A stretch of DNA of 64,000 nt, taken from positions 1 through 64,000 of the forward strand of contig NZ_LKIU01000002.1 of NCBI RefSeq assembly GCF_001307035.1, given 5' to 3'. The DNA comes from Arthrobacter sp. Edens01 (GTDB taxonomy: Bacteria; Actinomycetota; Actinomycetes; Actinomycetales; Micrococcaceae). How positions within the stretch are numbered: position 1 is the first letter of the stretch; every line of letters begins with the position of its first letter. A program made the translations under genes and the position numbers. This document shows positions 1,491-62,000 of this stretch, in pieces. The notes beneath the pieces are model-generated. The model was not told the origin of the DNA and did no database searches. It was given only the letters and a program-made list of their open reading frames with translations.

Positions 1491-1525
1491 CCCCCCCCCG
1501 CCCGACGAGGCAACAGAACGAGATC

Positions 1526-1567
1526 ACAGAAACTGCCCGTATGAACGCTCATACGGGCAGTTTCTGT
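1526..1567. terminator. Palindrome family A, bidirectional terminator between convergent genes
   Basis: A perfect 19-bp stem (1526-1544 with 1549-1567) encloses a 4-base loop. It lies between the MFS stop at 1490 and the ABC permease stop at 1587, so it can terminate both. Its arm cagaaactgcccgtat and the preceding acgagat are shared with the 58-bp palindrome at 56431-56488. That marks it as a dispersed element rather than an ordinary terminator. Confidence 0.85.
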
Positions 1568-1586
1568 CATGTCGATGGGCGGGAAG

Positions 1587-2774
1587 CTACTGCTCCAGCT
1601 TCATCGCCTTGCGCAGGGTCAGCGCTCCGCCGCCCTGCATCACCGCGCGGCGGTAGATCTTCTCGCCGAACCGCAGCAGCGCATAGGCGGCAGCCAGGGC
1701 GATGGCCAGGGATACGAACGTCTCCCACAGCGGAATCTCGCTGCTGAGCATGCGCACCGGCATGGCCACCGTTGAGATGACCGGGACGAAGGACGCCACC
1801 ACCAGTAGCTGTCCCTTGGCGAACAGCCCGGCGAAGAGCGCCGCGATGATCACGGTCAGCACCGGGCCGGAGCTGTTGTTCAGGTCCTCGGAGCGGGAAG
1901 CCATTGAACCGAGCATGGCCCACAGGGACGCCAGGATCAGGAAGCCCACCAGGAAGAAGACCAGGAACCAGCCCGACGCCGGAATGATGGTGCTCACCGA
2001 GTCTGCCGTTCCGGTGAAGGTCAGGGCCAGCAGGGCAGCACCGGCGTAGAGGGCCAGCTGGATCATGGCCAGGATCGTGTTGCCGGCAACCTTGCCGTAG
2101 AGCAGCTGGCGGATCGGAATGGCGGTGGCCAGGATTTCGACCACGCGGTTCTGCTTCTCCTCCAGGACGGAGGTTGCAATCGCCATGCCGAAGATGATGG
2201 CCGCCATGTAGAAGAGGAACCCGAAGACGAACCCGGTGAACTGGGCAACGAACTGGTTTTCCGCGTTGCCGTTCAGCAGGGCGGTCTCGAACTCGCTGCC
2301 TTCCAGCAGGGCTTCGGACGTGGTGCCGGCCTCACCGGCGTTGATCTCGAGCGCGTAGGCACGCAGGGCCTCGGTCATGCCCTGCTGCAGTCCGCTGGAG
2401 AGTTCTTCGTTGCCGGTGAGCATCCACTGGCCGTCCGCGTCGCGGGTCAGTGCGGCGTCGGCTTCTTCGCTGCTGACCAGTTCTTCGGCGCCCTCGGCGC
2501 TGGAAGCCACTACGGCCTCGAAGCTGGTGTTCCCACCGTCGGCCTGGCCGGTTTCGTGCGCGAGGTCAACGACGGCGGTCGCCGCGGAATCGTTGACGGC
2601 TACTGTGTATTCCTCCGCCTTGGTGCTCATGTAGGCGTTGAAGACCACGACGCCGACAATCAGTACCAGCGTGACGAGCGTGGAGATCAGGTAACTGCGG
2701 TCGCGGGCCTTGACCATGACCTCGCGGAGGGTGACGATCGCCCACGCCGGGGTGGGCCGGGAAACGGTGCTCAT
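1587..2774 (-). CDS. ABC-2 type exporter permease (NatB/YhaP-like)
   Basis: The 395-aa membrane subunit partners the ATPase at 2771-3655, whose stop it overlaps by 4 bases (ATGA). One hydrophobic segment sits near residues 28-48. A long extracytoplasmic domain of about 130 residues follows, then five or six membrane helices in the C-terminal half. The segment GMAIATSVLEEKQNRVVEILATAIPIRQLLYGK is the conserved cytoplasmic motif of NatB-like ABC-2 permeases. The pair likely exports sodium, a drug or a peptide. The following two-component system may sense cell-envelope stress and control it, but that is inferred only from position. Confidence 0.88.
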   Translation of the reverse strand: MSTVSRPTPAWAIVTLREVMVKARDRSYLISTLVTLVLIVGVVVFNAYMSTKAEEYTVAVNDSAATAVVDLAHETGQADGGNTSFEAVVASSAEGAEELVSSEEADAALTRDADGQWMLTGNEELSSGLQQGMTEALRAYALEINAGEAGTTSEALLEGSEFETALLNGNAENQFVAQFTGFVFGFLFYMAAIIFGMAIATSVLEEKQNRVVEILATAIPIRQLLYGKVAGNTILAMIQLALYAGAALLALTFTGTADSVSTIIPASGWFLVFFLVGFLILASLWAMLGSMASRSEDLNNSSGPVLTVIIAALFAGLFAKGQLLVVASFVPVISTVAMPVRMLSSEIPLWETFVSLAIALAAAYALLRFGEKIYRRAVMQGGGALTLRKAMKLEQ

Positions 2775-33703: not shown

Positions 33704-33742
33704 GAGAAGTGCCCCTCCCGGCCTGCCGGAGGGGCACTTCTC
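33704..33742. terminator. Hairpin terminator after the siderophore-binding gene
   Basis: The 15-bp stem gagaagtgcccctcc (33704-33718) pairs with 33728-33742 across a 9-base loop. It lies 14 bases after the stop. Confidence 0.8.
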
Positions 33743-38787: not shown

Positions 38788-39831
38788 ATGGCGGAGACAG
38801 CATCCGGCGGGGACTACAGCACCAAGGGGTCCTATGTGTCCGGCGGGCAGGAATACACCCGCGACACGAACTACATCGAAACCCGCATCACCCGCGACGG
38901 GCGGGACGGCTACCCGGTGGAAGCTGGACGCTACCGCCTGATCGCTGCGCGGGCCTGCCCCTGGGCCAACCGCACCATCATTGTGCGCCGCCTGCTGGGA
39001 CTCGAAGACGCCATTTCCCTGGGCACGCCCGGCCCCACGCATGACTCCCGCAGCTGGACTTTCGACCTCGATCCGGACGGAAAGGATCCAGTGCTCGGGA
39101 TCGAACGCCTGCAGGAAGCATTCTTCCGGCGGACTCCCGGATACAGCCGTGGAATCACGGTCCCCGCGGTAGTGGACATTCCCACCGGTGCCGTGGTGAC
39201 CAATAATTTCCCGCAGATCACCGAGGACTTCTGCACCGAGTGGGTGGACTTCCACCGCGAGGGCGCACCGGATCTCTGGCCGGCCGAACACCTGGATGAA
39301 ATGCGCGAAGTGAACAAGCGCGTCTTCACCGAGATTAACAACGGTGTTTACCGCTGCGGTTTCGCCGGTTCCCAGGAAGCCTACGACGCTGCTTATGACC
39401 GGCTCTGGACGGCCATGGACTGGCTGGAAGACCGGCTTTCGAAGCAGCGCTACCTCATCGGTGACACCATCACCGAGTCCGACGTCCGGCTGTTCACCAC
39501 CCTGGTCCGGTTCGATTCCGTCTACCACGGCCATTTCAAATGCAACCGGAACAAGCTCACCGAAATGCCTAACCTTTGGGGCTACGCCCGGGACCTGTTC
39601 CAGACCCCAGGCTTTGGCGACACCGTGGACTTCGTGCAGATCAAGCAGCACTACTACATCGTCCATGAAGACATTAACCCCACGGGAATTGTCCCGAAGG
39701 GACCGGACAACTCAGTCTGGCTGACCGATCACGGCAGGGAAGCGCTCGGCGGACGTCCGTTCGGAAACGGAACCGCTCCCGGCCCGGTCCGCCCAGGCGA
39801 GGAAGTTACCCCGGGGCACGGCGCCGAGTAG
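38788..39831 (+). CDS. Xi-class glutathione S-transferase-like hydroquinone reductase
   Basis: The 347-aa enzyme has the Xi-class active-site motif ACPWANR (about residues 53-59) in a thioredoxin-fold N-domain. A C-terminal helical domain has WLEDRLSKQRYLIGDTITESDVRLFTTLVRFD. Such enzymes reduce glutathionyl-hydroquinones; actinobacteria make mycothiol instead of glutathione, so a mycothiyl-hydroquinone substrate is likely. The ATG at 38788 follows GAGGGATGGAG; the frame opens at 38746. It is divergent from the epimerase. Confidence 0.88.
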   Translation: MAETASGGDYSTKGSYVSGGQEYTRDTNYIETRITRDGRDGYPVEAGRYRLIAARACPWANRTIIVRRLLGLEDAISLGTPGPTHDSRSWTFDLDPDGKDPVLGIERLQEAFFRRTPGYSRGITVPAVVDIPTGAVVTNNFPQITEDFCTEWVDFHREGAPDLWPAEHLDEMREVNKRVFTEINNGVYRCGFAGSQEAYDAAYDRLWTAMDWLEDRLSKQRYLIGDTITESDVRLFTTLVRFDSVYHGHFKCNRNKLTEMPNLWGYARDLFQTPGFGDTVDFVQIKQHYYIVHEDINPTGIVPKGPDNSVWLTDHGREALGGRPFGNGTAPGPVRPGEEVTPGHGAE

Positions 39832-39857: not shown

Positions 39858-39932
39858 TACTCCCACGCGAGAGGTCAGTTACGGCTCCTCTGAGCCTTCA
39901 TAAGGGCCGTAACTGGCCTCCCGGCGGGAGTA
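39858..39932. repeat. Intergenic repeat family B, full imperfect palindrome
   Basis: ggtcagttacggc (39873-39885) pairs with gccgtaactggcc (39906-39918) with only one G-U pair. The outer tactccc/gggagta arms (39858-39864 with 39926-39932) extend it. The arm cgagaggtcagttacggc recurs exactly at 112-129. It lies between the GST and the iron-uptake genes and may act as a terminator. Confidence 0.75.
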
Positions 39933-49492: not shown

Positions 49493-50638
49493 ATGCGCCA
49501 GCCCCGGATACTGACCATCATTCTTGCCGGAGGTTCCGGCGGACGGCTCGGGAGCCTCACGGATACCCGCGCCAAGCCGGCAATGCCGGTGGGCGGTTCC
49601 TACCGGCTGATCGATATTCCCCTCTCCAACCTGCATAATTCCGGACTTAGCGACGTCTGGATCGTCGAGCAGTACGAACCGAAGTCACTGAACGACCATC
49701 TGGTCAGCGGACGTCCCTGGGATCTGGACCGGACCAATGGGGGACTGCGCGTCCTGCCGCCGTTCCAGGGCTCTGATGGTGAAGGGTTCGCCGAGGGCAA
49801 CGCAGATGCCCTGTACCGCCAGGTGGACTACATCCGCGAATACGACCCCGATTTGATTCTGGTCCTCAGCGCCGACCACCTTTACCGCCTGGATTACCGC
49901 GACGTGATTGCCACGCATTCGGCTGCCGGAGCAGCGCTGACCGTGGTGAGCCACCGGATCGTCCACGACCCGTCCGAGCACGGTGTCCTGGAAGTGGACG
50001 GCGGGACCGTCACCGGGTTCGAGTACAAGCCGGAGAATCCCAGGACAGACCTGATCGCCGCGGAAATTTTCCTCTACGACGCCGAGGTGCTGCTGCGCAG
50101 CCTCGAGGAACTCATGGAACGCGACGGCAAGCTGGAGGACTACGGAGACCAGCTGCTGCCCTATCTTGTGGAACGGGAGAAAGTCGTCGAGCACCGGCTG
50201 GACGGCTACTGGCGGGACATGGGTACTCCGGACAGCTACCATCAGGCCCACATGGACCTCCTGGACGGCCACGGGATGGTCTTCGATGACCCGGCATGGC
50301 CGATCCTCTCCGCGACTCCGCGGCGGCTGCCCGCCTTCGTGGGTGCATCTGCCCGGGTGGAAACAAGCCTGCTGGCTCCGGGCTGCCGGGTGGACGGTGA
50401 AGTCACCCGCAGCGTCGTGGGACCGGACTGCCACATCGAGCCCGGTGCCGAGGTCCACGGCTGTGTCCTGCTCGACGGCGTGCGCGTCATCACGGGCGCC
50501 CGGCTGCGGAACATGGTGGTGGATTCCGGAGCCGTGGTGGGCGGTGCAACTGACCTGGATGGTGTGAAAGAGGACCCGGAAACCGGGATCGCCGTCGTGA
50601 CTTCCGCCGGAGCGCTGGAGAAGCCTTCCGCTGATTAG
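49493..50638 (+). CDS. glgC: Glucose-1-phosphate adenylyltransferase-like nucleotidyltransferase
   Basis: The 381-aa protein makes ADP-glucose for glycogen from ATP and glucose-1-phosphate. ILAGGSGGRLGSLTDTRAKPAMPVGGSYRLIDIPLSN is the catalytic N-terminal signature (residues 6-42). VLSADHLYRLDYRDVIATH has the metal-binding Asp, and DGYWRDMGTPDSYHQAHMDLL is also characteristic. The C-terminal left-handed beta-helix is shorter than in E. coli GlgC (431 aa), and the enzyme may be a GlgC-like paralog. It is coupled to the MarR gene, an unusual arrangement. Confidence 0.87.
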   Translation: MRQPRILTIILAGGSGGRLGSLTDTRAKPAMPVGGSYRLIDIPLSNLHNSGLSDVWIVEQYEPKSLNDHLVSGRPWDLDRTNGGLRVLPPFQGSDGEGFAEGNADALYRQVDYIREYDPDLILVLSADHLYRLDYRDVIATHSAAGAALTVVSHRIVHDPSEHGVLEVDGGTVTGFEYKPENPRTDLIAAEIFLYDAEVLLRSLEELMERDGKLEDYGDQLLPYLVEREKVVEHRLDGYWRDMGTPDSYHQAHMDLLDGHGMVFDDPAWPILSATPRRLPAFVGASARVETSLLAPGCRVDGEVTRSVVGPDCHIEPGAEVHGCVLLDGVRVITGARLRNMVVDSGAVVGGATDLDGVKEDPETGIAVVTSAGALEKPSAD

Positions 50639-50992
50639 CCGGTTTGGCTCAGGCGACGTAACCGTTTAGGATAGGAAGGCGTTAAGTCGCGCCCATGATC
50701 TGGTTTGGTCCCGCAAGGGTACGGACCAGAGCATTTGCGTGGCCGCCCGTATAAACCTAGAATTGAAGGCTGTCACAGTGGATTACTGCTATGGCTGCCC
50801 GAACTTCACCGTCTTCCCCGCGGCGAGGCACTTCGGCTGGATCTCACCCCGCCAGGTCAACCTCCGGAAAGTCGCAGTAATAACGGTGTCAAAACTGGTG
50901 GCGGGACGCTCTTTATTGCAGGTGCCATGGCGGCATCGCCTGGTGCTTGTTTTTTGAGGACCGTCATATTTACTACAACTGGAGGAGAGATC
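50639..50992. other. 354-bp gap before the ribosomal operon
   Basis: No convincing ORF is visible. Candidate elements are a 32-base hairpin at 50699-50730 (tctggt/accaga with an inner ccc-gcaa-ggg stem) and a likely promoter near 50948-50975 (TTGTTT with TATTTA). No AT-rich Zur palindrome is visible in this stretch. Confidence 0.5.
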
Positions 50993-51229
50993 ATGGCAGC
51001 TTACTGCCAGGTAACCGGAGCTGTTCCCGGCTTTGGTCACAGCATTTCGCACTCGCACCGCCGCAACAAGCGTCGGTTCGACCCGAATATTCAGAAGAAG
51101 CGCTACTGGGTTCCGTCCCTGCGCCGCAACGTGACGCTGCAGGTTTCGGCCCGCGGCATCAAGACGATCGACGTCCGCGGCATTGACGCAGTCGTCACCG
51201 AACTCCTCGCGAAGGGTGTGAAGCTCTAG
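50993..51229 (+). CDS. rpmB: Ribosomal protein bL28, zinc-independent form
   Basis: The 78-aa protein opens [20 protein letters not shown], the bL28 start. The zinc-binding form has a CxxC here; this copy has only one cysteine, so it is of the C- (zinc-independent) type. GGAGGAGAG lies 4 bases before the ATG. It is the first gene of an operon with L33 and S14. Confidence 0.93.
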
Positions 51230-51396
51230 TGGCTAAGGATAAGGACGTTCGTCCGATCATCAAGCTGAAGTCGACCGCCGGCACCGGGTACACCTACGTG
51301 ACCCGCAAGAACCGTCGTAACGACCCGGACCGCATGGTTCTGAAGAAGTACGACCCCAAGATCCGCCAGCACGTCGAATTCCGTGAGGAGCGCTAA
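51229..51396 (+). CDS. rpmG: Ribosomal protein bL33, zinc-independent form
   Basis: The 55-aa protein begins with GTG ([20 protein letters not shown]) and overlaps the L28 stop by one base. It contains no cysteine, unlike the C+ form with two CxxC motifs. It ends EFREER. It is immediately followed, 2 bases later, by rpsN. Confidence 0.93.
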
Positions 51397-51398
51397 GA

Positions 51399-51704
51399 AT
51401 GGCAAAGAAGTCCAAGATTGCCCGCAACGAGCAGCGCAAGGTTGTTGTTGAGCGCTACGCTGCCAAGCGCCTCGAACTGAAGAAGACCCTGGTCGACCCG
51501 AACGCGACTGACGAAGCACGCGAAGCAGCACGCCTCGGCCTGCAGAAGCTTCCCCGCAACGCTTCGCCGGTTCGCCTGCGCAACCGCGACCAGATCGACG
51601 GCCGCCCCCGCGGTACCCTCCAGAAGTTCGGTATCTCCCGCGTGCGTTTCCGCGATATGGCTCACGCCGGCGAACTGCCCGGCATCAAGAAGTCCAGCTG
51701 GTAA
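51399..51704 (+). CDS. rpsN: Ribosomal protein uS14, zinc-independent long form
   Basis: The 101-aa protein is the long, cysteine-free S14, starting [20 protein letters not shown] and ending GIKKSSW. The short zinc form is 61 aa with CxxC pairs. Together with the L28 and L33 copies it makes a complete cysteine-poor set. In many actinobacteria such sets are induced by zinc shortage, but none of the upstream sequence resembles a Zur site. Confidence 0.93.
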
Positions 51705-51723
51705 GCATCGCTTTCCACGCCTG

Positions 51724-51758
51724 AAAAGGGCGGCAACCGTTATGGTTGCCGCCCTTTT
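51724..51758. terminator. Terminator after rpsN
   Basis: A 15-bp stem aaaagggcggcaacc (51724-51738) with 51744-51758 has a 5-base loop and ends in TTTTT on the plus strand. This is a strong intrinsic terminator. Confidence 0.92.
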
Positions 51759-51815
51759 TGCGTCCTAGGCAGTTCCGCAGACCAAAAACTGCCCTGATTC
51801 GTCCAAAAACCCGAA

Positions 51816-51839
51816 AAAACCGCGAAAACCCGCGGTTTT
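51816..51839. promoter_or_regulatory. A-rich hairpin in the HU leader
   Basis: aaaaccgcg (51816-51824) pairs with cgcggtttt (51831-51839) around a 6-base loop, in the A-rich leader 100-124 bases before the HU start. It may be part of an attenuator or promoter, but nothing decides. Confidence 0.4.
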
Positions 51840-51939
51840 CTGCGCGACTTGGGCTCCTAAGCTGGTAAGTTTTCGAACAGAGGCGGTTACGCATCCGTGA
51901 ACCGCTCGCGCTAAACACCAGAGTCCAGGAGGACATAAA

Positions 51940-52224
51940 TTGGCTATGAACCGCAGTGAACTTGTTGCCGCAGTCGCAGAGAAGTCCGGCAACAGCCAGA
52001 CCGCCGTCAACGGCGTGCTCGATGCTGTCTTCGACATCTTCGCCACTTCCGTTGCCAACGGCGAGAAGATCACCATCCCGGGCTGGCTTGCTGTTGAGCG
52101 CACCGACCGCGCAGCTCGCCAGGGCCGTAACCCGCAGACCGGCGAAACCATTCAGATTCCGGCCGGCCACAGCGTCAAGCTGACCGCAGGTTCCAAGCTG
52201 AAGGCTGCTGTCGCCAAGAAGTAG
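51940..52224 (+). CDS. hup: HU-family nucleoid protein
   Basis: The 94-aa DNA-binding protein starts at TTG 51940 (MAMNRSELVAAVAEKSG), 6 bases after AGGAGGA. The internal ATG at 51946 is 12 bases away and would lose two family residues, so TTG is preferred. ITIPGWLAVERTDRAARQGRNPQTGE is the beta-arm region that inserts in the minor groove. It is a short HU without the Lys-rich C-terminal tail common in mycobacteria. It lies downstream of the ribosomal operon terminator. Confidence 0.92.
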   Translation: MAMNRSELVAAVAEKSGNSQTAVNGVLDAVFDIFATSVANGEKITIPGWLAVERTDRAARQGRNPQTGETIQIPAGHSVKLTAGSKLKAAVAKK

Positions 52225-52244
52225 TATTTCGCTTTTCACTCGAA

Positions 52245-52275
52245 GGGCCGGTGCCGGAATGGTACCGGCCCTTTG
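52245..52275. terminator. Hairpin terminator after HU
   Basis: aagggccggt (52245-52254) pairs with accggccctt (52266-52275) and is followed by TGTGTTG. It lies 20 bases after the stop. Confidence 0.8.
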
Positions 52276-52363
52276 TGTTGCTGCCGCGCATCCGGTACGC
52301 CACCCGCAGCCGAATGGATCAATCTGCGGCAGTGATTGGCCCAATTTTTACAAGGGGTAGAGA

Positions 52364-54505
52364 ATGGATAGCGTGCCGAACTCTGCCAAGACCCAGAACA
52401 CGCTCCCTGGCCGTCCAGCCGGCGGAGCGTCCGAACCCGGTCATCCCGCCCGCAACGGCTGGCTCGCCGCAGGCGCCGCCGTTATGCTGCTGGCGCTCGG
52501 AGTGGCGCTGCTGTTTACAGGCTCAGCAGCCGCCGCTCAGCTGGCGGATCCGGGCGCGCTGACACGCTGGGGCCTGCCCATCGCAAAGGCCGTCCAGAAC
52601 GGCGCCGTGGCAGCAGTCATCGGCGCCCTGGTGTTTGCCGTCTTCATCCTGCCCAAGCACGCGGGACCTAAACGCGGCAGGGGCGAGCGGGAAACCCGCC
52701 CCGAGCATCCGGCCTTCACCCAGGCCATGTACCTGGCCTCCGGCGCCGCGGCACTGTGGACGCTGTCCGCCATCGCCGTCATGCTTTTTACCTACTCCGA
52801 CGTGTCCGGACTGCCCCTTAGCCCTGACCCCTCCTACACCGACGGGCTCGCGTCCTTCCTGACGGACTTCGCCAACGGCCGGGCCTGGCTGGCAGTGAGC
52901 ATCATCGCTGCCGTGGTGACCACCCTGACATTTGGTGTCCGCTCGCTGACCGGCCTGGCGCTGACCCTGATCCTTGCCATGGGTGGCCTGCTGCCAATGG
53001 CGCTGGTGGGCCACGCGGCCGGCGGCGATGACCACAGCGCCGCGGTGAACTCCATTGGCCTGCACCTGATCGGCGTCTGCGTCTGGATTGGCGGGATCAT
53101 TGTCCTCGCCGTTATTGCCAAGCAGCTCGGGGACATCACCGGCACGGTCCTGCGCCGCTTCTCGGCCCTGGCCGGCTTCGGTTTCGTGCTGGTTTCCCTC
53201 TCCGGCCTGGTGAACGCGTCCCTGCGCATCACGTCCCTGGAACAGCTGGATTCCCGCTGGGGGGCGCTGGTGCTCTTCAAGGTCGCGGCAACCCTGGTGC
53301 TGGGCATCCTAGGCCTGCTGCACCGCCGCTGGATCATCCCCCAGCTTCCGGTGGCCGCTTCCGGCAAGGGTGCGACGACGCCCGCTTCCGGCGGTATGAG
53401 CGCACGCCGTGTGCTGTGGCAGCTGATCGGCGTCGAACTGCTGATCATGGGGGCAATCTCCGGCGTGGCTGCGGCGCTGGCCCGCACCGCTCCGCCGCGT
53501 CCGGAGGAACTGCCCCCGAACGCGTCGCCCGCACGCATCCTCACCGGCTACGACCTGCCGCCCGAGCTGACCGCGGAACGTTACCTCACCGAGTGGCGCT
53601 TCGACTGGCTCTGGGTCGCCATTGTGGTGACCATCGGCGTCGCGTACCTGCTGGGCGTACGCAAGCTGCGCCGCCGGGGGGACAAATGGTCCTTCGTCCG
53701 GACCGTCTGCTGGTTCGTGGGCCTGATCGCCCTCACCTACGTCACCTCCGGCGCGCCGGCGGTGTACGGCATGGTGCTGTTCAGCACGCACATGCTCGGA
53801 CATATGGCGCTGACCATGGTGGTCCCGCTGTTCCTGGTCCTCGGCGCGCCCGTGACGCTGGCCCTCAAGGCTCTCACTCCGCGCGGGGACGGCAGCCGCG
53901 GACTGCGCGAATGGATCCTGATCGCGGTGCACTCGCGGTACTCCAAGATCATCACCAATCCGATCTTTGCCGCCGCGAACTTTGCCGGCTCGATCGTGAT
54001 TTTCTATTACTCGGAGCTGTTCGGGTTCGCGCTGCGCGAGCACGTGGGCCACGAGCTGATGATCCTGCACTTCCTGCTCACCGGCTACATCTTCATCCTG
54101 ACCATGATCGGGATCGACCCGCTGCCCAGCCGGGCCCCGTACCCGCTGCGCCTGGTGATCCTGCTGGCAACCATGGCGTTCCACGCGTTCTTCGGCGTCG
54201 CGGTCATGGGCCAGACCTCGCTCATCCAGGCGTCGTACTTCGGCAACATGGGCCGGGACTGGGGTGTCAGCGCACTGGAGGACCAGCAGCTCGGCGGAGC
54301 CATCATGTGGGGAATCGGCGAAATTCCCACTGTCCTGGTGGCAATCGGCGTCGCACTTCAGTGGTCGCGCACGGATGCACGTGAAACAAAACGCAAAGAC
54401 CGTGCGGCCGAACGGAATAACGATGCTGAACTTACGGCTTACAACAATATGTTCGCCCAGCTGGCCGAACGTGATGCTAGGACAGACCAAGGAGAACGCA
54501 GATGA
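52364..54505 (+). CDS. CopD / CtaG fusion: copper-handling and cytochrome oxidase assembly protein
   Basis: The 713-aa membrane protein fuses two domains. The N-terminal half (about residues 30-330) is CopD-like, with eight or nine helices. The C-terminal half (about 390-660) is a caa3-type cytochrome c oxidase assembly (CtaG) domain with ALTYVTSGAPAVYGMVLFSTHMLGHMALTMVVPLFLVLGAPVTLALKAL, which holds conserved His residues. Such actinobacterial fusions are thought to deliver copper to the oxidase. The stop overlaps the NHL-thioredoxin ATG by 4 bases. Confidence 0.9.
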   Translation: MDSVPNSAKTQNTLPGRPAGGASEPGHPARNGWLAAGAAVMLLALGVALLFTGSAAAAQLADPGALTRWGLPIAKAVQNGAVAAVIGALVFAVFILPKHAGPKRGRGERETRPEHPAFTQAMYLASGAAALWTLSAIAVMLFTYSDVSGLPLSPDPSYTDGLASFLTDFANGRAWLAVSIIAAVVTTLTFGVRSLTGLALTLILAMGGLLPMALVGHAAGGDDHSAAVNSIGLHLIGVCVWIGGIIVLAVIAKQLGDITGTVLRRFSALAGFGFVLVSLSGLVNASLRITSLEQLDSRWGALVLFKVAATLVLGILGLLHRRWIIPQLPVAASGKGATTPASGGMSARRVLWQLIGVELLIMGAISGVAAALARTAPPRPEELPPNASPARILTGYDLPPELTAERYLTEWRFDWLWVAIVVTIGVAYLLGVRKLRRRGDKWSFVRTVCWFVGLIALTYVTSGAPAVYGMVLFSTHMLGHMALTMVVPLFLVLGAPVTLALKALTPRGDGSRGLREWILIAVHSRYSKIITNPIFAAANFAGSIVIFYYSELFGFALREHVGHELMILHFLLTGYIFILTMIGIDPLPSRAPYPLRLVILLATMAFHAFFGVAVMGQTSLIQASYFGNMGRDWGVSALEDQQLGGAIMWGIGEIPTVLVAIGVALQWSRTDARETKRKDRAAERNNDAELTAYNNMFAQLAERDARTDQGERR

Positions 54506-56412
54506 CTGAAACGGTGCGCGCCGGATACCGCGTCCGGGCCTCCGAACTGGAGGGACGCAACTGGCTCAACACCGGTGGCAGGCAGCTGGGACTCGAAGAC
54601 CTCCGCGGCAAGATTGTGCTGCTGGACTTCTGGACCTTCTGCTGCATCAATTGCCTGCATGTGCTGGATGAGCTGCGGCCCCTGGAAGCCAAGTACTCAG
54701 ACGTCCTGGTGACGGTGGGCGTTCATTCGCCCAAGTTCGAGCACGAAGCCGACCCGGTTGCCCTGGCGGCCGCCGTCGAACGCTACGAAATCCACCACCC
54801 GGTCCTGGACGATCCGGAACTGGCAACGTGGCAGGCTTACACCGCCCGCGCCTGGCCCACCCTGGTGGTCATCGACCCCGAAGGCTACATCGTTGCCCAC
54901 CTCTCCGGTGAGGGCCACGCAGCCGGGCTGGAGTCCCTCGTCGCCGAGCTTGTTGCCGAGCACGAAGCGAAGGGCACCCTGCACCGCGGGGACGGTCCCT
55001 ACGTCCCGGCCGAGGCGACGTCCGGCGATCTGCGCTTCCCGGGCAAGGCCGTTGCCCTTCCGGAGGGGACCTTCCTGGTTGCCGATACCGGGCACCACCG
55101 TCTGGTGGAGCTGGAAGCGGACCTCACCACCGTCCGCCGCACCATTGGCGAAGGCACCAAGGGCTGGCGCGACGGCGACGCCGGAACTGCGCGGTTCAAC
55201 GAACCGCAGGGGCTCGCCGTGCTGCCGGCCGCTGTCGCTGAGACCCTTGACTACGACGTCCTGGTGGCAGATACCGTGAACCACCGCCTGCGCGGCGTGA
55301 ACCTCGCCACGGGCGCAGTCACCACGGTGGCCGGCAACGGAGTGCAGCGGCTGCTCGACGCGGAGAACCAGTCCGCCCCCGTATCGACCGATCTCGGAAC
55401 CGACCCGCTGGGCACGTCGCTCTCCTCCCCCTGGGACGTCCTCTGGTCCACCGCCCTGAACCAGGCCGTTATCGCCATGGCCGGAACGCACCAGATCTTC
55501 GCGTTCGATCCCGCCACCGGCGCTCTTTCCATCCTGGCCGGCACAGGCCTGGAGGGACTGCTCGACGGCGACGGTGACGCCGCATGGTTCGCCCAGTCCT
55601 CAGGCCTGGCACAGGACGCCGAGGGCAGCATCTGGGTAGCGGATTCGGAAACGTCAGCGCTCCGGAAACTTACCTTCGACACGTCGGGTGCGGAAACGGC
55701 AGTCACGGTCGAAACTGCAGTAGGCGCAGGACTCTTCGACTTCGGCTACCGCGACGGCGCCTCCGCCGAAGCACGGCTGCAGCATCCGCTGGGCGTCGCT
55801 GTGCTGCCGGACGGCTCAGTAGCCATTGCCGACACCTACAACGGTGCCGTGCGGCGCTACGATCCTGCCGCGCAAAGCGTCTCGACGCTCTCCCGCGGCC
55901 TTGCGGAACCATCGGGGGTCCTCATCGACACAACCGCCGCTGAGCCGCTCCTGATCGTTGTGGAGGCCAACAAGCACCAGCTGGTGCGGCTTCCCATCCC
56001 CAAGGAAGCACAGTCAGTGGATGAGGGAGCGCGTCAGACACAGCGCCCCAAGACGGCCATTGCGGCCGGCCCGCTGGGGCTGACGGTCCGTTTCGCAGCG
56101 CCCAAGGGACAGAAGCTGGACGACCGCTGGGGAGACCCGACGCAGCTGAAGATCTCCTCCTCACCCGAGGAGCTGCTGGTCTCCGGAGGCGGCACCGCCG
56201 TCGGGCTGGTCCGTGAACTGGTGCTTTCCGACGCCGTCACTGAAGGCGTTCTGCACATCACCGCCCGTGCCGCAGCATGTGACGGCGAACCGGGGGGAGA
56301 GATCCCGGACCATGCTGCATGCCATCTGTACCAGCAGGACTGGGGCATCCCCGTGGTCGTGCAGGCAGGCGGCGAGACTGAACTGACCCTGGATCTGCGC
56401 GGACTGGACTAA
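54502..56412 (+). CDS. Thioredoxin-like / NHL-repeat fusion protein
   Basis: The 636-aa protein has a thioredoxin-like N-domain (residues 25-165) with the redox motif FCCINCLHVLDE, giving a CxxC-like pair (Cys-Ile-Asn-Cys). The rest is NHL beta-propeller repeats (GLAVLP, VADTVNHRLRG, VADSETSALRKL and more). It resembles NHLRC2. There is no signal peptide, so the protein should be cytoplasmic unless exported by another route. Coupling to the CopD/CtaG gene suggests a role in copper or thiol handling. Confidence 0.9.
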   Translation: MTETVRAGYRVRASELEGRNWLNTGGRQLGLEDLRGKIVLLDFWTFCCINCLHVLDELRPLEAKYSDVLVTVGVHSPKFEHEADPVALAAAVERYEIHHPVLDDPELATWQAYTARAWPTLVVIDPEGYIVAHLSGEGHAAGLESLVAELVAEHEAKGTLHRGDGPYVPAEATSGDLRFPGKAVALPEGTFLVADTGHHRLVELEADLTTVRRTIGEGTKGWRDGDAGTARFNEPQGLAVLPAAVAETLDYDVLVADTVNHRLRGVNLATGAVTTVAGNGVQRLLDAENQSAPVSTDLGTDPLGTSLSSPWDVLWSTALNQAVIAMAGTHQIFAFDPATGALSILAGTGLEGLLDGDGDAAWFAQSSGLAQDAEGSIWVADSETSALRKLTFDTSGAETAVTVETAVGAGLFDFGYRDGASAEARLQHPLGVAVLPDGSVAIADTYNGAVRRYDPAAQSVSTLSRGLAEPSGVLIDTTAAEPLLIVVEANKHQLVRLPIPKEAQSVDEGARQTQRPKTAIAAGPLGLTVRFAAPKGQKLDDRWGDPTQLKISSSPEELLVSGGGTAVGLVRELVLSDAVTEGVLHITARAAACDGEPGGEIPDHAACHLYQQDWGIPVVVQAGGETELTLDLRGLD

Positions 56413-56430
56413 CTCCCGCACCCCCACCCA

Positions 56431-56488
56431 ACGAGATAGCAGAAACTGCCCGTATCCGGCCGGATACGGGCAGTTTCTGCTATCTCGT
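56431..56488. repeat. Palindrome family A: perfect 58-bp palindrome
   Basis: The element has perfect 28-bp arms (56431-56458 and 56461-56488) around a 2-base centre. It fills nearly the whole gap between two convergent stops (56412 and 56490). Its arm shares the 24-of-26-base start of the palindrome at 1517-1567. It probably works as a bidirectional terminator, but such long perfect symmetry exceeds what termination needs. Confidence 0.9.
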
Positions 56489-56489
56489 G

Positions 56490-57473
56490 TTACTCGATAA
56501 CCGCGGTAAGGGAGATGCCGCCGTCAGTCACTGAAAGCCGGGCACCGAAGGTGAAGTCCTTGTCTTCCACCAGAGGGCTCTGCACCCCGGAGAACAGATC
56601 GGTCTGGGTGGCTTTGACCCGGGCCGTGCCCTGCAGCGGGGCGAGCACCCAGTGACCCTCTGCGGGGGAGATCTCAACACTCGGGTAATCGACAATCTCC
56701 CACGTGATGGGAGGCTCAACCCGGTTGTCCGTCAGGTGGTAGAAGGGGCAGCCCGGAGGCGCCAGCCGGTTCTGTTCCCCGGCACAGCTGTCCAGGAACT
56801 CGCGGACCCGGGTGTCAACCGCTTCCACCAGCTCATCGGTGGGCTGGCTCCGCAGCGTCAGGTCCAGTGAATCTCCGGGAGAGGACAGGACTGCCGCCTG
56901 TTCAGGAGCCTCGAAGTACCCGCTCGAGTAGGAGGCCGCCACCCGGGCGGGGTAGAACGCTGTGAACGTGTTGCTGCCCTCGGGCAGCAGGACCTGGCTG
57001 CCGTTCAGCACAGCCTCGTTCTGGTTGGCGGCGTTGACCTGGAAGGTCGGGAGTTCCTGCGGACGGATCTTCCACTCATCGAAGAAGATCCAGCGGGTAC
57101 CGGTCCGCTCAAGTTCGAAGGTCGACTGGTGTTCGGATCCATCCAGCCGGTACTTGACCACAACGTCGGTGCGTCCCTTAACGGATGCTTCTGCTTCATC
57201 CATGGACAGCACTTCAAGCCCGTCCATGGAGGCTTTCAGCGCCTCTCCGTCCAGGAGGGCGGCGTTGGCGTCTGGAACCTTGGCGTTCAGGATCCCGAGG
57301 GCCTGGCCGCCGTTGCCCTCCTGAAGCGCCTGGAAATAGTCCTCCACCTGGTTGGCCGGCCCGTAAACCTTTGCGTTTACGAGCCAGATAGCGACGACGG
57401 CGGACGCGATGGTCAGCATGAGGACAGTGAGCCATATGGTGACTGCCCTGATTACCGGTGATGATGCCTGCAC
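56490..57473 (-). CDS. Conserved actinobacterial membrane-anchored protein, function unknown
   Basis: The 327-aa protein has one N-terminal helix (residues 10-33, TIWLTVLMLTIASAVVAIWLV) and a large extracytoplasmic region. The first 110 external residues contain VEDYFQALQEGNGGQALGIL, similar in style to DUF4878/NTF2-like modules. It contains one Cys pair near the end (CAGEQNRLAPPGCPF), possibly a disulfide. I do not recognise the family. It lies upstream of the sugC gene on the same strand. Confidence 0.75.
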   Translation of the reverse strand: MQASSPVIRAVTIWLTVLMLTIASAVVAIWLVNAKVYGPANQVEDYFQALQEGNGGQALGILNAKVPDANAALLDGEALKASMDGLEVLSMDEAEASVKGRTDVVVKYRLDGSEHQSTFELERTGTRWIFFDEWKIRPQELPTFQVNAANQNEAVLNGSQVLLPEGSNTFTAFYPARVAASYSSGYFEAPEQAAVLSSPGDSLDLTLRSQPTDELVEAVDTRVREFLDSCAGEQNRLAPPGCPFYHLTDNRVEPPITWEIVDYPSVEISPAEGHWVLAPLQGTARVKATQTDLFSGVQSPLVEDKDFTFGARLSVTDGGISLTAVIE

Positions 57474-57557
57474 GCTCTTACGTTACCTGCCGCGGGCGGG
57501 CGCAGCTTACCCGGAGGCGGCTGCGTGCCGTCCCCGGGTCAGCCGGACCGATGCCCC

Positions 57558-58835
57558 TTAGGCGTCCGCTGCGGTGGCCGCGGCTTCCTTTTGTTCGTCG
57601 CGGGCCATGGCGATTTCTTCGGCACGCCGCTCATTAGCTTCTTCAGTCAGTTCCGCGCCGGCCTCCGGATCGCGGGTCAGGTTCTCGCCCGTCTCCGGAT
57701 CGAAGATATGGATCTTGCGGGTGTCCAGCCACAGCTCTGCCTCACGGCCGCCGCGTACCCGGCTGGCGGCGTCGAGGGTCACCACGATCTGCGGGCGGAG
57801 TTCATCCGCGTCCATGTCCCGCGCCAGGTTGTCCAGCAGTTCCCGGACCTCGGGCGTGGGGTCGAAGTGGATGTAACCGTACTGTTCGTTGCCGAGCCAT
57901 TCGGTGTGGGTGATGGCGGCCTTGAAAGTGGATCCCTTCGCCAGCTTGTCACCTTCCACCAGCGAGGCATCCTCAAAGAACTCCGGCCGGATGCCCACTA
58001 GCACGACTTTCTTGCCCTGTGCCTTGGCAGCCTTGTCTTCGGGGACCTGGATATCACCGACGGCGGTCTCCAGGATGTTTCCTTCCTTGATGGTCGCCGG
58101 GAGGAAGTTCATGGAGGGGGAGCCAATGAAACCGGCTACAAAGAGGTTGACGGGCTGCTCATACAGTTCACGGGGGGACGCCACCTGCTGCAGGATGCCC
58201 TTTTTCAGGACTGCAACGCGGTCGCCGAGGGTCATGGCCTCGGTCTGGTCGTGGGTCACGTAGATGCTGGTCACGCCCAGGCGCCGCTGCATCTGCGAGA
58301 TTTCCGACCGCATCTGGCCGCGGAGCTTGGCGTCGAGGTTGGAGAGCGGCTCATCGAACAGGAACGCATCGGCCTGACGGACGATCGCGCGGCCCATGGC
58401 TACCCGCTGGCGCTGGCCGCCTGAGAGGTTCGCGGGCTTGCGGTCCAGGTGCTCCGTCAGCTCCAGGGTGGAAGCTGCGTCATTAACGAGCCGCTTAACT
58501 TCCTCATCGTTGTACTTGCCCTTGTTGAGCCGCAGCGGGAAGGCGATGTTCTCGAATACGGTCAGGTGCGGATAGAGGGCATAGTTCTGGAACACCATCG
58601 CAAGGTTCCGGTCCCGCGGAGCCTTGTCATTGACGCGCTCACCGTTGATCAGCAGGTCACCGGAAGTGATGTCCTCCAGACCCACGATCATACGAAGCAG
58701 GGTCGACTTACCGCAGCCGGACGGTCCCACCAGGATGATGAACTCGCCGTCGGCAATGTCCAGGCTGACGTCGTTGACGGCGGGGAAGCCGTCCCCGTAC
58801 TTCTTGACGAGATGGTTGAGAGTGATAGATGCCAT
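57558..58835 (-). CDS. sugC: Trehalose ABC importer ATP-binding protein
   Basis: The 425-aa ATPase is of the MalK/UgpC class. Walker A GPSGCGKST (about residues 37-45), signature LSGGQRQRVAMG, Walker B LFDEPLSNLD, and the OB-like C-domain are visible. The ATG at 58835 is 8 bases from AAGGAG; an ATG six bases earlier is only 2 bases from it and less likely. It follows the sugB gene. A charged C-terminal tail extends beyond usual family length. Confidence 0.9.
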   Translation of the reverse strand: MASITLNHLVKKYGDGFPAVNDVSLDIADGEFIILVGPSGCGKSTLLRMIVGLEDITSGDLLINGERVNDKAPRDRNLAMVFQNYALYPHLTVFENIAFPLRLNKGKYNDEEVKRLVNDAASTLELTEHLDRKPANLSGGQRQRVAMGRAIVRQADAFLFDEPLSNLDAKLRGQMRSEISQMQRRLGVTSIYVTHDQTEAMTLGDRVAVLKKGILQQVASPRELYEQPVNLFVAGFIGSPSMNFLPATIKEGNILETAVGDIQVPEDKAAKAQGKKVVLVGIRPEFFEDASLVEGDKLAKGSTFKAAITHTEWLGNEQYGYIHFDPTPEVRELLDNLARDMDADELRPQIVVTLDAASRVRGGREAELWLDTRKIHIFDPETGENLTRDPEAGAELTEEANERRAEEIAMARDEQKEAAATAADA

Positions 58836-58872
58836 GCTCATGGCTCCTTTTCTAGTACCGTGCGTCTGGGGG

Positions 58873-59715
58873 CTAGCCCTTGACGGCGCCCTGGGTTAGT
58901 CCGGATACGATCTGTCGCTGGAACAGCAGTACGAGTACAACGACCGGGATGGTCACAATGATCGCTGCTGCGGAAATTGCCCCCGTTGGTGCCTCGAACT
59001 GGGAAGCTCCCGTAAAGAAGGCCAGCGCGGCCGGAACCGGCCGGGCGGCTGAGGTCGACGTGAGTGAAATGCCGTACACGAAGTCGTTCCAGGCGATGAA
59101 GAATGCGATGATCGCCGTCGTGAAGACGCCGGGCGCGGCAAGCGGAACGATCGCCTTCCGGAACGCCTGCCACGTGGTGGCGCCGTCCACCTGTGCCGCC
59201 TGCTCCAGTTCCCACGGAATCTGGCGGAAGAACGCGGCCAGGGTCCAGATGGAGATGGGAAGGGTCAGCGAGAGGTAGGGAATGATCAGCCCGGGCCAGG
59301 TGTCGTAGAGGCCAATGTTCCGCCAGAGGTTGAACAAGGGGGTCACGATGGAGATCACCGGGAAGATCGAGACGCCAAGAGCTGTGGTCAGCACCAGCCG
59401 CTTGCCCGGGAAATCCAGGCGGGCGATGGCGTAGGCACACAACGTAGCAAGTACGACGGCGATGAACGTGGCGATCAGCGAAATGCCGATCGAGTTCCGC
59501 AGCGCGGAGAGGAACAGTTCCTGTGCGTCTCCAACCAGGATCTGTTCGTAGTTCACCGTGGACCAGGTGGTCGGCAGGAACGTGCCGGAGGTGAGGTCGC
59601 TGGGAAGCTTGAACGACGTCGCGAAGATGGATGCAACGGGGAACAGCGCATAGACGATCACCAGGATGGAAATGATGGTCCAGGTGATGCGCCTGCGTAT
59701 CGGTGACGATTCCAT
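58873..59715 (-). CDS. sugB: Trehalose ABC importer permease
   Basis: The 280-aa protein is the MalG-type half of the importer. The EAA loop reads EQAAQVDGATTWQAFRKAIVPLAAPG. It has six helices, beginning RRITWTIISILVIVYALFPVASIF. It directly follows sugA, whose stop abuts its ATG. Confidence 0.92.
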   Translation of the reverse strand: MESSPIRRRITWTIISILVIVYALFPVASIFATSFKLPSDLTSGTFLPTTWSTVNYEQILVGDAQELFLSALRNSIGISLIATFIAVVLATLCAYAIARLDFPGKRLVLTTALGVSIFPVISIVTPLFNLWRNIGLYDTWPGLIIPYLSLTLPISIWTLAAFFRQIPWELEQAAQVDGATTWQAFRKAIVPLAAPGVFTTAIIAFFIAWNDFVYGISLTSTSAARPVPAALAFFTGASQFEAPTGAISAAAIIVTIPVVVLVLLFQRQIVSGLTQGAVKG

Positions 59716-60681
59716 TTAGTTGCCCCCTCGTGCGCCGGTCAGGTCCACCTTGAAAAGTTTGATCGCCACGAAGCAGATCAGGATCACGCAGAGGAACAAC
59801 AGGACTGAAACTGCCGAACCCATGCCGATCTCCAGCCGGGTAATCGATGTGCGGTAGGCCAGGAGGGACAGGGTCTCAGTGCCGTAGGCGCCCCTGGTCA
59901 TGATGTAGACGTTGTCGAAGATTCGGAAGGCATCAAGTGCGCGGAACAGGACGGCCACCATGATGGCTGCCTTCATGTTCGGCACGATCACCCGGGAGAA
60001 CCGCTGCCACCAGGTGGCGCCGTCGACCTCTGCCGCCTCGGTGAGCTCACCCGGGACCTGCGCGAGTCCGGCCAGCAGGAGGAGGGAGATGAACGGCGTC
60101 GTCTTCCAGATCTCCGAGGCCATGATGACGGTGATGGCGGTACCGAAGTCAGCGAACCAGTTCAGGTCGGTGCTGATGCCCGGCACCCAGCTGAACCAGT
60201 GGTTTATGTATCCGGAGTTGATGTCGAAGGCGTAGAACCAGGCGAATGCCGATACCACGGTGATGATGCCGTAGGGGACCAGGATGGCCGTGCGCAGCCA
60301 GCCGCGGACTGCCTTCAGAGCGCTGTTCATGACCATGGCCAGCGCAAAACCGAGCACGAGCTCGATCACCACGGTGACCACGGTGATCAGCAGGGTTACT
60401 CCCAGGTCCCGCCAGAAGACTTCATCGGTGAGGATGGTGGCGTAGTTGCTGAGGAAGACGAACTCCCGGTCGTCCGGAGCCGTCAGGCGGTACTTGAAGA
60501 GCGAATCCCAGAGCGCCAGGAGGATGGGATAAGCGGTTACGGCCAGCATGATGATGAACGCAGGCCCGGCCAGCCAGAAACCCAGCCGCCGTTCAGCCCT
60601 GGCCCGGTCGCTCAGCCCGGGTTTGCGTCCTTTGGGACTGCCGCCGGCAGCGGCGGCACGCATCTCGACTGACGTGCTCAT
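59716..60681 (-). CDS. sugA: Trehalose ABC importer permease
   Basis: The 321-aa MalF-type permease carries the EAA loop ELTEAAEVDGATWWQRFSRVIVPNMK. About six helices follow a 30-residue charged N-terminus. Its ATG overlaps the lpqY stop by 4 bases (60678-60681). Confidence 0.92.
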   Translation of the reverse strand: MSTSVEMRAAAAGGSPKGRKPGLSDRARAERRLGFWLAGPAFIIMLAVTAYPILLALWDSLFKYRLTAPDDREFVFLSNYATILTDEVFWRDLGVTLLITVVTVVIELVLGFALAMVMNSALKAVRGWLRTAILVPYGIITVVSAFAWFYAFDINSGYINHWFSWVPGISTDLNWFADFGTAITVIMASEIWKTTPFISLLLLAGLAQVPGELTEAAEVDGATWWQRFSRVIVPNMKAAIMVAVLFRALDAFRIFDNVYIMTRGAYGTETLSLLAYRTSITRLEIGMGSAVSVLLFLCVILICFVAIKLFKVDLTGARGGN

Positions 60682-62000
60682 AGCAGCCTCTCTCCCTTCA
60701 GGACCTCAAGAATGAACTGCTGGCTGGTTTCCGGCGTGGTGTCCGGATTGACGTCCTGCGGCGGAGTCCAGGTCTGCTGGATGCCGGTGGAGATTTCGTT
60801 GTAGTACGGAGTCTGCGGGCGGGGTTTGGCCAGATCGAGCGATTCACGGATCGTCCCTGCCATGGGGAACGTATCCACCACCTCCGGATCGTTATACGCA
60901 TCCGGGTTCGAGGGCGGGTTGCCGTTGCTGGCGAAGTAATACGCCTGGTTCTCAGGACTGACAATGCACTCGATCGCGTCGAAGGCCTCATCCGGATGCT
61001 TGCTCTTGGAGCCAACGCCCAAATTGATGCCGCCCAGCGGGGGAGCGGTTTCCTCGCCCTCGTTGACCTGGGGGTACAGTGCCCAGCCAATGTCGTCGAT
61101 CAGGGAAGCCGGCAGGGCACCCTCCTCAACGGCAGCGTTGGTCGCGGGCCAGACGAAGGGATAGTTGACCATAAACGCTCCCTTGTCGCCCTGGAACTGG
61201 ATCATCGAAAAGTTCTCGGTCTGGGTTGGAAGCCCCGGGCCGCCGAGGCCTTCCTTGCCGATGGTGGAGACGATTTCGGCGGCCTTCTTCCCGGCATCCG
61301 AGTCGATGCCCAGCCGGATCTCATCGGCCGAGGCATCCGGGTTCTCCACGATCTGCCCGCCGGCCGATTCGATCAAAGCGTTCACCCATACGGTCATGGA
61401 CTCGGCCCGGGCGCCCTGGACGCTGAGGTACTTGTCCTGGCTGGCGACCGCTTCGATCAGCTGGTCCCAGGTGACGGGCTGGCTCATATCGAGCCCGGCG
61501 GCCTCGGCCACGGACTTGCGGTACCAGAGAATCTGAGTGTTCGCCCAGAACGGGACGGCGACTACCTCGTCCTTCCAGGTGGCACCGGCAAGGGCGCCTT
61601 CCAGGACGTTGGCGGTGGTGCGTTCACGCACGTCATCAGGAATCGGCGCCAGGTATCCCGGTTCCGCGTATTCAGGGACGTTGGGCGGGTCCAGGCTCAT
61701 GATGTCCATGCTGGTGTCACCTGCTGCGAGCCGCCGCGCCAGCTGCTCCCGCTGCGACGGGGCATCGTTGGGAAGAAGCGAAGTCTCAATGGTGTATGCC
61801 CCGTCCGAAGCGTCAGTGCAACGCTTCGCGAGTTCGGCCTGGCCGCCGTCGTCGGGGTTGATGTACCACGTCAGGGTCGGCGCAGAACCGGAATCCGAGC
61901 TGCAGCCGGCCAGCAGAGTGGCACCAACGGCGAGGGCGAACCCCGCAGCTGCAGACTTCTTCATCCGGTGTCTGCCGTGATGTTTTGCACCTTGTGGCAT
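60678..62000 (-). CDS. lpqY: Trehalose-binding lipoprotein
   Basis: The 440-aa lipoprotein has a signal peptide ending LLAGCSSD and a sugar-binding fold. PLTWYINPDDGG-type and PSQREQLARRLAAGDTSMDIMSLD segments match the mycobacterial LpqY pattern, including the position of MALD/MSLD. The gene order lpqY-sugA-sugB-sugC is the same as in mycobacteria. GGAGG lies 10 bases before the ATG at 62000; a later ATG at 61964 and the open frame to 62108 are weaker. It captures trehalose released from the envelope. Two palindromes precede it. Confidence 0.88.
   Translation of the reverse strand: MPQGAKHHGRHRMKKSAAAGFALAVGATLLAGCSSDSGSAPTLTWYINPDDGGQAELAKRCTDASDGAYTIETSLLPNDAPSQREQLARRLAAGDTSMDIMSLDPPNVPEYAEPGYLAPIPDDVRERTTANVLEGALAGATWKDEVVAVPFWANTQILWYRKSVAEAAGLDMSQPVTWDQLIEAVASQDKYLSVQGARAESMTVWVNALIESAGGQIVENPDASADEIRLGIDSDAGKKAAEIVSTIGKEGLGGPGLPTQTENFSMIQFQGDKGAFMVNYPFVWPATNAAVEEGALPASLIDDIGWALYPQVNEGEETAPPLGGINLGVGSKSKHPDEAFDAIECIVSPENQAYYFASNGNPPSNPDAYNDPEVVDTFPMAGTIRESLDLAKPRPQTPYYNEISTGIQQTWTPPQDVNPDTTPETSQQFILEVLKGERLL

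Follow-up and report, generated by a model that had tools for sequence, protein, structure and literature searches.

A family of 60-base palindromic hairpins behind stop codons in Arthrobacter sp. Edens01, putative two-way terminators without a U-tract

The genome of Arthrobacter sp. Edens01 contains about fifty similar 60-base hairpins that lie just behind stop codons. The copies have a common length, follow stop codons, favor gaps between convergent genes, are symmetric on both strands and are followed by no T-tract; related species share copies at the same loci, and at three loci that lack the element another hairpin is found. With moderate confidence, we regard the perfect palindrome at 56431-56488 of the window (the whole stretch of DNA that was analyzed, 64,000 nucleotides at the beginning of contig NZ_LKIU01000002.1) as a member of a lineage-specific family of two-way 3'-end (terminator) hairpins that lack a U-tract. 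The element presumably terminates transcription.

Three elements were found in the window (Table 1). The palindrome at 56431-56488 had been described as perfect in a first-pass annotation of the sequence, and it is (58 of 58 positions, with 29-bp arms and no spacer); the RNA of the surrounding region (56410-56510) is predicted to fold with -58 kcal/mol (z -11.84). The annotation had also placed a second stem at 1526-1567, which is real but constitutes only the inner part of a longer element, 1517-1576, in which 52 of 60 positions are palindromic. Both sites lie between convergent genes and have CAGAAACTGCCCGTAT in common, on both arms of each, in agreement with that first description. Allowing up to three mismatches, the 16-base arm matches five times in the window as compared with 0.23 expected, and none of 100 shuffles reached five. 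The third element (CGAGAGGTCAGTTACGGC...), which we refer to as type B, is palindromic at 42 of 56 positions (E 2.9e-12 with R2, a broader search model than the R1 described below) and sits in a tandem gap, 36 nt past the stop of the + strand glutathione S-transferase-like gene. An Rfam search of the window returned only a tRNA, and a search of five loci gave five matches, all below the cut-off; the 56431 element is absent from the 17 terminator-like sites predicted in 50000-62000. Other perfect 15-bp hairpins are present in intergenic gaps of the window at 33704-33742 and 51724-51758, the latter starting with AAAA and ending with TTTT, like ordinary terminators.

Table 1. Coordinates of the palindromic elements in the window and of their neighboring genes
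Feature	Position	Strand	Remarks
Main element, type A	56430-56489	.	R1 82.1 bits (+), 81.5 bits (-)
Second element, type A, imperfect palindrome	1517-1576	.	R1 76.4 and 76.1 bits
Third element, type B, diverged, arms CAGTTACGGC...	39868-39923	.	R2 52.1 and 48.8 bits
Thioredoxin-like and NHL-repeat protein gene, upstream of main element	54502-56412	+	stop 17 nt from the 60-nt element
Convergent gene at main element	56490-57473	-	stop adjoins the element; no Pfam match at E 0.001
C-rich spacer from stop to palindrome	56413-56430	+	typical of the family
MFS transporter gene, upstream of second element	186-1490	+	
ABC-2 membrane protein gene, convergent at second element	1587-2774	-	
Glutathione S-transferase-like gene, before type B element	38788-39831	+	

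Counting the 12-base arm AGAAACTGCCCG over the whole genome gave 54 exact copies (26 forward and 28 reverse, versus 0 and 1 for the reversed control). These form 25 exact inverted pairs, whose center measures 14 nt in 24 cases and 15 nt in one; each of the four unpaired exact arms has opposite it, at the normal spacing, a partner that has mutated, indicating that no longer element with these ends is to be seen. The consensus half-element is aTCGAGATnrCAGAAACTGCCCGTwTs. A covariance model built from the 25 exact inverted pairs (R1), in a genome search that scored 150 of 1495 candidates, produced 109 strand hits at 55 places, the weakest of which (22.7 bits, on one strand only) may be due to chance; 46 places are 60 nt long and the rest 53-61 nt. 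Some of the 55 carry other arms (CAGTTACGGCTC, CAGAAACGGCTC or CAGAAAGTGC) in the same frame, and at least three further type B copies (at 39868, 321021 and 369546 of contig C2 of this genome) fall outside the R1 list, so that 55 is a lower bound. As is characteristic of a dispersed palindromic repeat, 54 of the 55 places lie outside called genes. The suggestion of a genome-wide repetitive element is therefore upheld by the exact arms and by the model places alike, which stand behind gene ends and are enriched between convergent genes. Our search of the openly accessible literature (subscription papers being outside its scope) yielded no description of this family in Micrococcaceae; in the accessible portion of the RepRanger paper (PMC12306157), A. 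livingstonensis appears in a table of counts only.

The copies were placed relative to genes called from codon usage (coding fraction 0.87-0.89). The 55 places comprise 26 between convergent genes, 25 in tandem gaps, three in divergent gaps and one within a called gene. The background frequency of convergent junctions, from a 400-kb stretch, is 54 of 381 (14%), and the enrichment is highly significant (p 3e-9, with the weakest of the 55 hits excluded). Across the loci examined, a set of 152 non-redundant elements, in which orthologs are counted separately, divides into 89 convergent, 56 tandem, six divergent and one within a gene. The median distance from stop codon to element in this set is 16 nt at tandem and 15 nt at convergent sites (95th percentiles 60-64 nt), as against a median of 80 nt from a tandem element to the next start codon, indicating that the element belongs to the end of a gene and not to the upcoming start.

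The 20 nt of 5' flank are rich in C (C 0.48, G 0.17-0.18, at convergent and tandem sites) compared with other stops in the same 400 kb (C 0.35-0.36, G 0.27-0.30) or in the window (C 0.34, G 0.32-0.35). On the far side, G is 0.44 and T is 0.13 in the 20 nt past the 19 of 25 tandem copies that were oriented, and no T-tract follows the element there. An extension of the stem into these flanks was considered and rejected: at the 46 places that measure 60 nt, the pairing of bases beyond the 60-mer is 0.346 at register 0 and 0.326-0.367 at other shifts, and the C/G-rich flanks are thus a feature of composition only. The element is not a canonical intrinsic terminator (a GC-rich hairpin plus a U run); it has the geometry of an I-shaped terminator, namely a strong hairpin (-58 kcal/mol), a median of 15-16 nt from the stop and no U tail. 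In two genomes of genus g20 (G074 and G116), all R1 sites of contig C1 (11 and 9 places) lie at most about 0.9 Mb from dnaA. A general bias toward the origin was rejected, being weak in genome G001 (KS p 0.08) and not evident in G003.

The claim that conservation exceeds what a stem needs was borne out by comparison of the copies. Thirteen consecutive bases per arm are invariant, beside freely varying positions, in 25 copies of this genome that were selected by the exact 12-mer; two-sided changes occur in 11 of the 28 pairs of these copies, with 46 such cells versus 17 in shuffles. For 32 elements from several genera, two-sided changes occur in 23 of 25 pairs (207 two-sided cells and eight one-sided), with the percentage paired biased because the rows of this alignment (A2) were picked as palindromes. 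Two of its columns are identical in all 32 elements and CGA is present at 31, 30 and 28 of 32, next to neighbors that vary freely; this shared cross-genus skeleton is in part a result of ascertainment, because the elements were found with R1, which was built from exact copies of the window's arm. We also considered an asymmetry of the kind that RNA wobble pairing would leave, and rejected it: sense-strand mismatches in tandem copies include 25 G.U and 19 A.C (p 0.45), showing no RNA-type wobble preference. The element is symmetric in the manner of DNA, or of both strands alike.

Conservation in place was evaluated over collinear 400-kb regions of the window's genome, A. citreus (G004) and A. 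gandavensis (G006), which contain 12, 12 and 13 listed sites, respectively. Eight of the 12 sites of the window's genome are present in both relatives, three in one and one in neither. Given the 54 exact arms and these eight shared sites, it is not the case that the two sites first noticed stand alone in the genome and differ in its relatives. A. gandavensis lacks the element at own 367629 and own 369546, and both relatives lack it at 554982; another hairpin occupies each of these places. The A. gandavensis gaps orthologous to C2:367629 and 369546 hold shorter hairpins, AGAAACCGCCCGTTCGGA and AGAACCGCCCGTTTGGA, which resemble the inner part of type A without the CGAGAT arms. No comparable replacement hairpin is present in the window's genome at G004 779112 or G006 470613, nor in that genome and A. 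citreus at G006 617282 (best local hairpin scores at these three element-less loci, 5.2-8.4). A. citreus carries a type B-like element at the G006 470613 locus, and the arm type differs between species at the same locus for own 321021, own 521629 and G004 924370. Among convergent gaps, another strong hairpin occurs in 3 of the 23 that hold an element and in 48 of the 79 that do not (p 8.5e-5, the three species' copies of an orthologous gap counting separately); among tandem gaps, where this complementarity is absent, the figures are 2 of 16 and 90 of 460 (p 0.75). The complementarity is confounded, because little sequence is left in gaps that hold an element.

The arms themselves change in a coordinated manner at one locus, own C2:585985. 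Both outer arms carry GAGATGAC in A. citreus (60 of 60 positions palindromic) and GAACATAC in the window's genome (54 of 60), and A. gandavensis has one arm of each kind (48 of 60); two pure states and one mixed state are explained by the copying of arm onto arm in opposite directions. Quasipalindrome template switching, a known mutation mechanism according to the accessible text of PMC7202029 and PMC8794818, matches this pattern. Over 24 comparisons at 12 loci, which are not independent (loci were compared in up to three species pairs) and leave out own site 608254, of 61 nt, a longer site at G006 317189 and the type B copy in G004 that faces own 521629, we counted 21 double Watson-Crick changes, four two-sided changes in which not both states are paired, and one-sided changes to G.T (17), A.C (17) or other mismatches (28). 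One-sided changes thus outnumber double ones by about three to one, indicating that the arms drift and that their renewal is incomplete.

One locus points to the gain of a copy. A. gandavensis and A. koreensis (G011) carry an element at G006 617282 that is absent from the window's genome and A. citreus, in both of which the convergent genes end on one another there. R2 found it in the former two species and not in the other 16 of the 18 loci that could be matched among 29 genus genomes, the exact site being extrapolated for more distant genomes. About 72 bp, including a C-rich leader, have been added. A 5-base repeat (GAGTC) round the A. gandavensis insertion was rejected as a target-site duplication, since the A. 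koreensis copy lacks it, and the insertion is accordingly one without target duplication. No Y1_Tnp (RAYT/IS200) domain was detected in the 29 genus genomes (the control search was positive in 5 of 14), and a search of phages and plasmids returned no match for one Arthrobacter element (that of the window) and one mycobacterial element.

Among the 29 genus genomes, the exact arm is abundant in five (13-35 per strand) and occurs 0-2 times per strand in the others, and R1 finds a match in 42 of 149 genomes of the family. Other genera have arms of their own in elements of 56-58 nt: CGAACCGCCAGTAGGTGCCCGTATCC (g20), CGACGTGGCAGATCACGCCCGTTTCC (g8) and CGAGTGCTCCGTAACTGCCCTTTTGA (g10). With R2 at E up to 1e-5, hits were obtained in 33 of 297 genomes of the order and 30 of 394 of the class, and outside the family they include generic hairpins. 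Searches by hairpin strength alone lessen, without removing, the ascertainment due to R1; they miss copies that are mismatched beside the loop, and most of the stretches searched had been selected because they contain known sites (for G074, 16 of 20), with listed sites in the G801 stretch as well. In this way, 11 of 29 hairpins in G074 were judged by reading to be family members. At gene ends in loci L399-L418 of G074 there is another hairpin family, whose stems are ACGACGACGGC...GCCGTCGTCGT; it seems to be a further terminator sequence of the shared kind. In another family of the order, genome G438 (locus L307) has a palindrome, CGAGCTTGCAGTAACTGCGGGGTTC..., with the same skeleton, and 14 R2 strand matches in all.

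Genus g117 carries a comparable palindrome. The SigA of one of its genomes (G488) is closest to that of PDB 5tw1, whose organism we take to be M. smegmatis, and hence we take g117 to be mycobacterial. The g117 arm, CGAGCAGACGCAAAA, occurs in 39 of 60 genomes in up to 33+35 copies, and the control in none of the 60. In the loci inspected (7 of 14 in one set and 4 in another), the palindromes are 58-59 nt long, sometimes decayed, and lie 3-29 nt behind stops. When 400 kb of one g117 genome, a stretch picked to hold listed sites, was searched by hairpin strength, all four hairpins scoring at least 17 were of this type and lay 8-29 nt behind stops. Among 20 class-level loci inspected, CAGACnCAAAA is present in the arm of four and nearly so in a fifth, and all five are from g117. 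The Arthrobacter family seems to be a branch of a larger actinobacterial group of hairpins, to which the 58-nt mycobacterial palindrome would also belong.

The first-pass annotation had offered a terminator, a recombination target or a gyrase site as functions of the palindrome, and a terminator without a U-tract is the best fit of these. Whichever side transcription comes from, the RNA would form an identical stem of up to 29 bp some 15 nt past the stop, and this hairpin most likely terminates transcription, or else sets the 3' end of the mRNA and protects it, in either case with no U-tract ('I-shaped'). Terminator function needs neither a fixed length nor conserved bases, which counts against the terminator reading. 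The conserved bases CGA, CAG and GCnC would be read by a factor; arm-to-arm template switching in DNA would renew the complementarity of the arms, as one clear locus suggests; and copies would sometimes be added at new gene ends, again as at one clear locus. Rho perhaps assists at the C-rich RNA preceding the hairpin; such a C-rich site is doubtful, because M. tuberculosis Rho recognizes purine-rich sequences according to the accessible text of a review (PMC12288462). The same text describes mycobacterial U-less 'I-shaped' terminators within 50 bp of stops, and it cites one title that calls the U-tract required and another that calls it dispensable. The terminator reading is also weakened by the finding, in the accessible part of PMC10937400 (Nature), that strong termination sites are few in M. 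tuberculosis. A wider reading is an actinobacterial class of spreading, self-repairing palindromes of 56-58 nt, which would be copied to new gene ends without a known transposase, have their arms renewed by template switching, and act as U-less terminators in both directions, specific in sequence and recognized by a factor evolving together with the arms in every lineage; this we consider possible and rather doubtful.

Several of the observations would also be expected of a self-copying, mobile palindromic repeat of the REP or MITE kind, whose presence behind stops is tolerated and whose effect on termination, if any, is a by-product. The insertion of about 72 bp in A. gandavensis and A. koreensis, with no R2 element at the other 16 loci, is in keeping with such a repeat, as are the abundance of the exact arm in just five of 29 genus genomes, the different subtypes held by the same locus in different species, and the lack of a replacement hairpin at three element-less loci. 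We nevertheless regard self-copying as an unlikely explanation: the 29 genomes have no Y1_Tnp (RAYT/IS200) domain, with the control positive in 5 of 14; the clear insertion came without target duplication; 8 of 12 sites in 400 kb are common to both relatives in place; the window's element is unmatched in phages or plasmids; and the four unpaired exact arms oppose mutated partners, so that no longer element bearing these ends was seen. Nor was a recombination role found for the family, though one copy appeared at a new gene end.

A site bound at the DNA level by gyrase, or by a nucleoid or roadblock protein, where convergent transcription piles up supercoils would account for the two-fold symmetry, the common length, the regular placement of conserved bases in each arm, the lack of wobble asymmetry and the convergent bias. 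That the variable positions change together in both arms is unneeded for a dimer site, however, and 56 nt is long for a single site, and 25 of the 55 copies lie in tandem gaps; we find this explanation improbable, for a gyrase site as for that of another protein. Ordinary intrinsic terminators, alike in sequence through descent only, would likewise be placed behind stop codons and could be substituted by other hairpins, as at three loci. They are very improbable given the lack of a T-tract (T 0.13 in the 20 nt past 19 tandem copies), the 13 invariant consecutive bases per arm beside free positions (in 25 copies picked by the exact 12-mer) and a length and skeleton that are similar across genera.

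The U-less hairpin termination that we favor as the role of the family is disputed in actinobacteria, and dozens of matched natural copies per genome constitute a clean test set, which lies in cultured Arthrobacter type strains. Pairs of species provide the same locus with the element in one and a different hairpin or none in the other. The family also supplies natural examples of arm-to-arm template switching, and of the addition of a short palindrome to a new gene end.

TRIT is reportedly a terminator motif of M. tuberculosis that Gardner et al. found with RNIE in 2011, and it is said to be a sequence-conserved hairpin near gene 3' ends. The g117 palindromes of 58-59 nt (CGAGCAGACGCAAAA..., 3-29 nt behind stops) look like TRIT and may belong with it. 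The g117 arm in turn resembles the Arthrobacter arm (CGAG..GAC..AAA..GCCC), and we regard the Arthrobacter family as a probable relative, specific to its lineage. The arms differ in sequence, and convergent bias, arm conversion and copy gain are described here for the Arthrobacter family only; calling the family a relative does not account for its uniform length, for the bases that are conserved, for the conversion of arms or for the appearance of a new copy. TRIT is named in the accessible text of PMC3526491.

I-shaped mycobacterial terminators are similar in having a hairpin at most 50 bp from the stop and no U tail (PMC12288462, accessible text), and differ in being defined by shape, whereas the Arthrobacter family also conserves sequence and length. 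REP elements (GTAG, CGTC) are likewise dispersed extragenic palindromes, mostly between co-directional or convergent genes; as described in the accessible text of PMC3733652, they have stems of 5-13 bp (8-9 bp in CGTC) and a tagged end, whereas the Arthrobacter stems reach 29 bp, and the GTAG families are often near RAYT genes, whereas no RAYT domain was found in 29 Arthrobacter genomes. The family differs from MITEs in that the one clear Arthrobacter insertion has no target-site duplication. Quasipalindrome template switching is a mutation mechanism rather than an element family; in the accessible text of PMC7202029 and PMC8794818, arm-to-arm copying perfects imperfect hairpins and gives multi-base compensatory changes, as at C2:585985.
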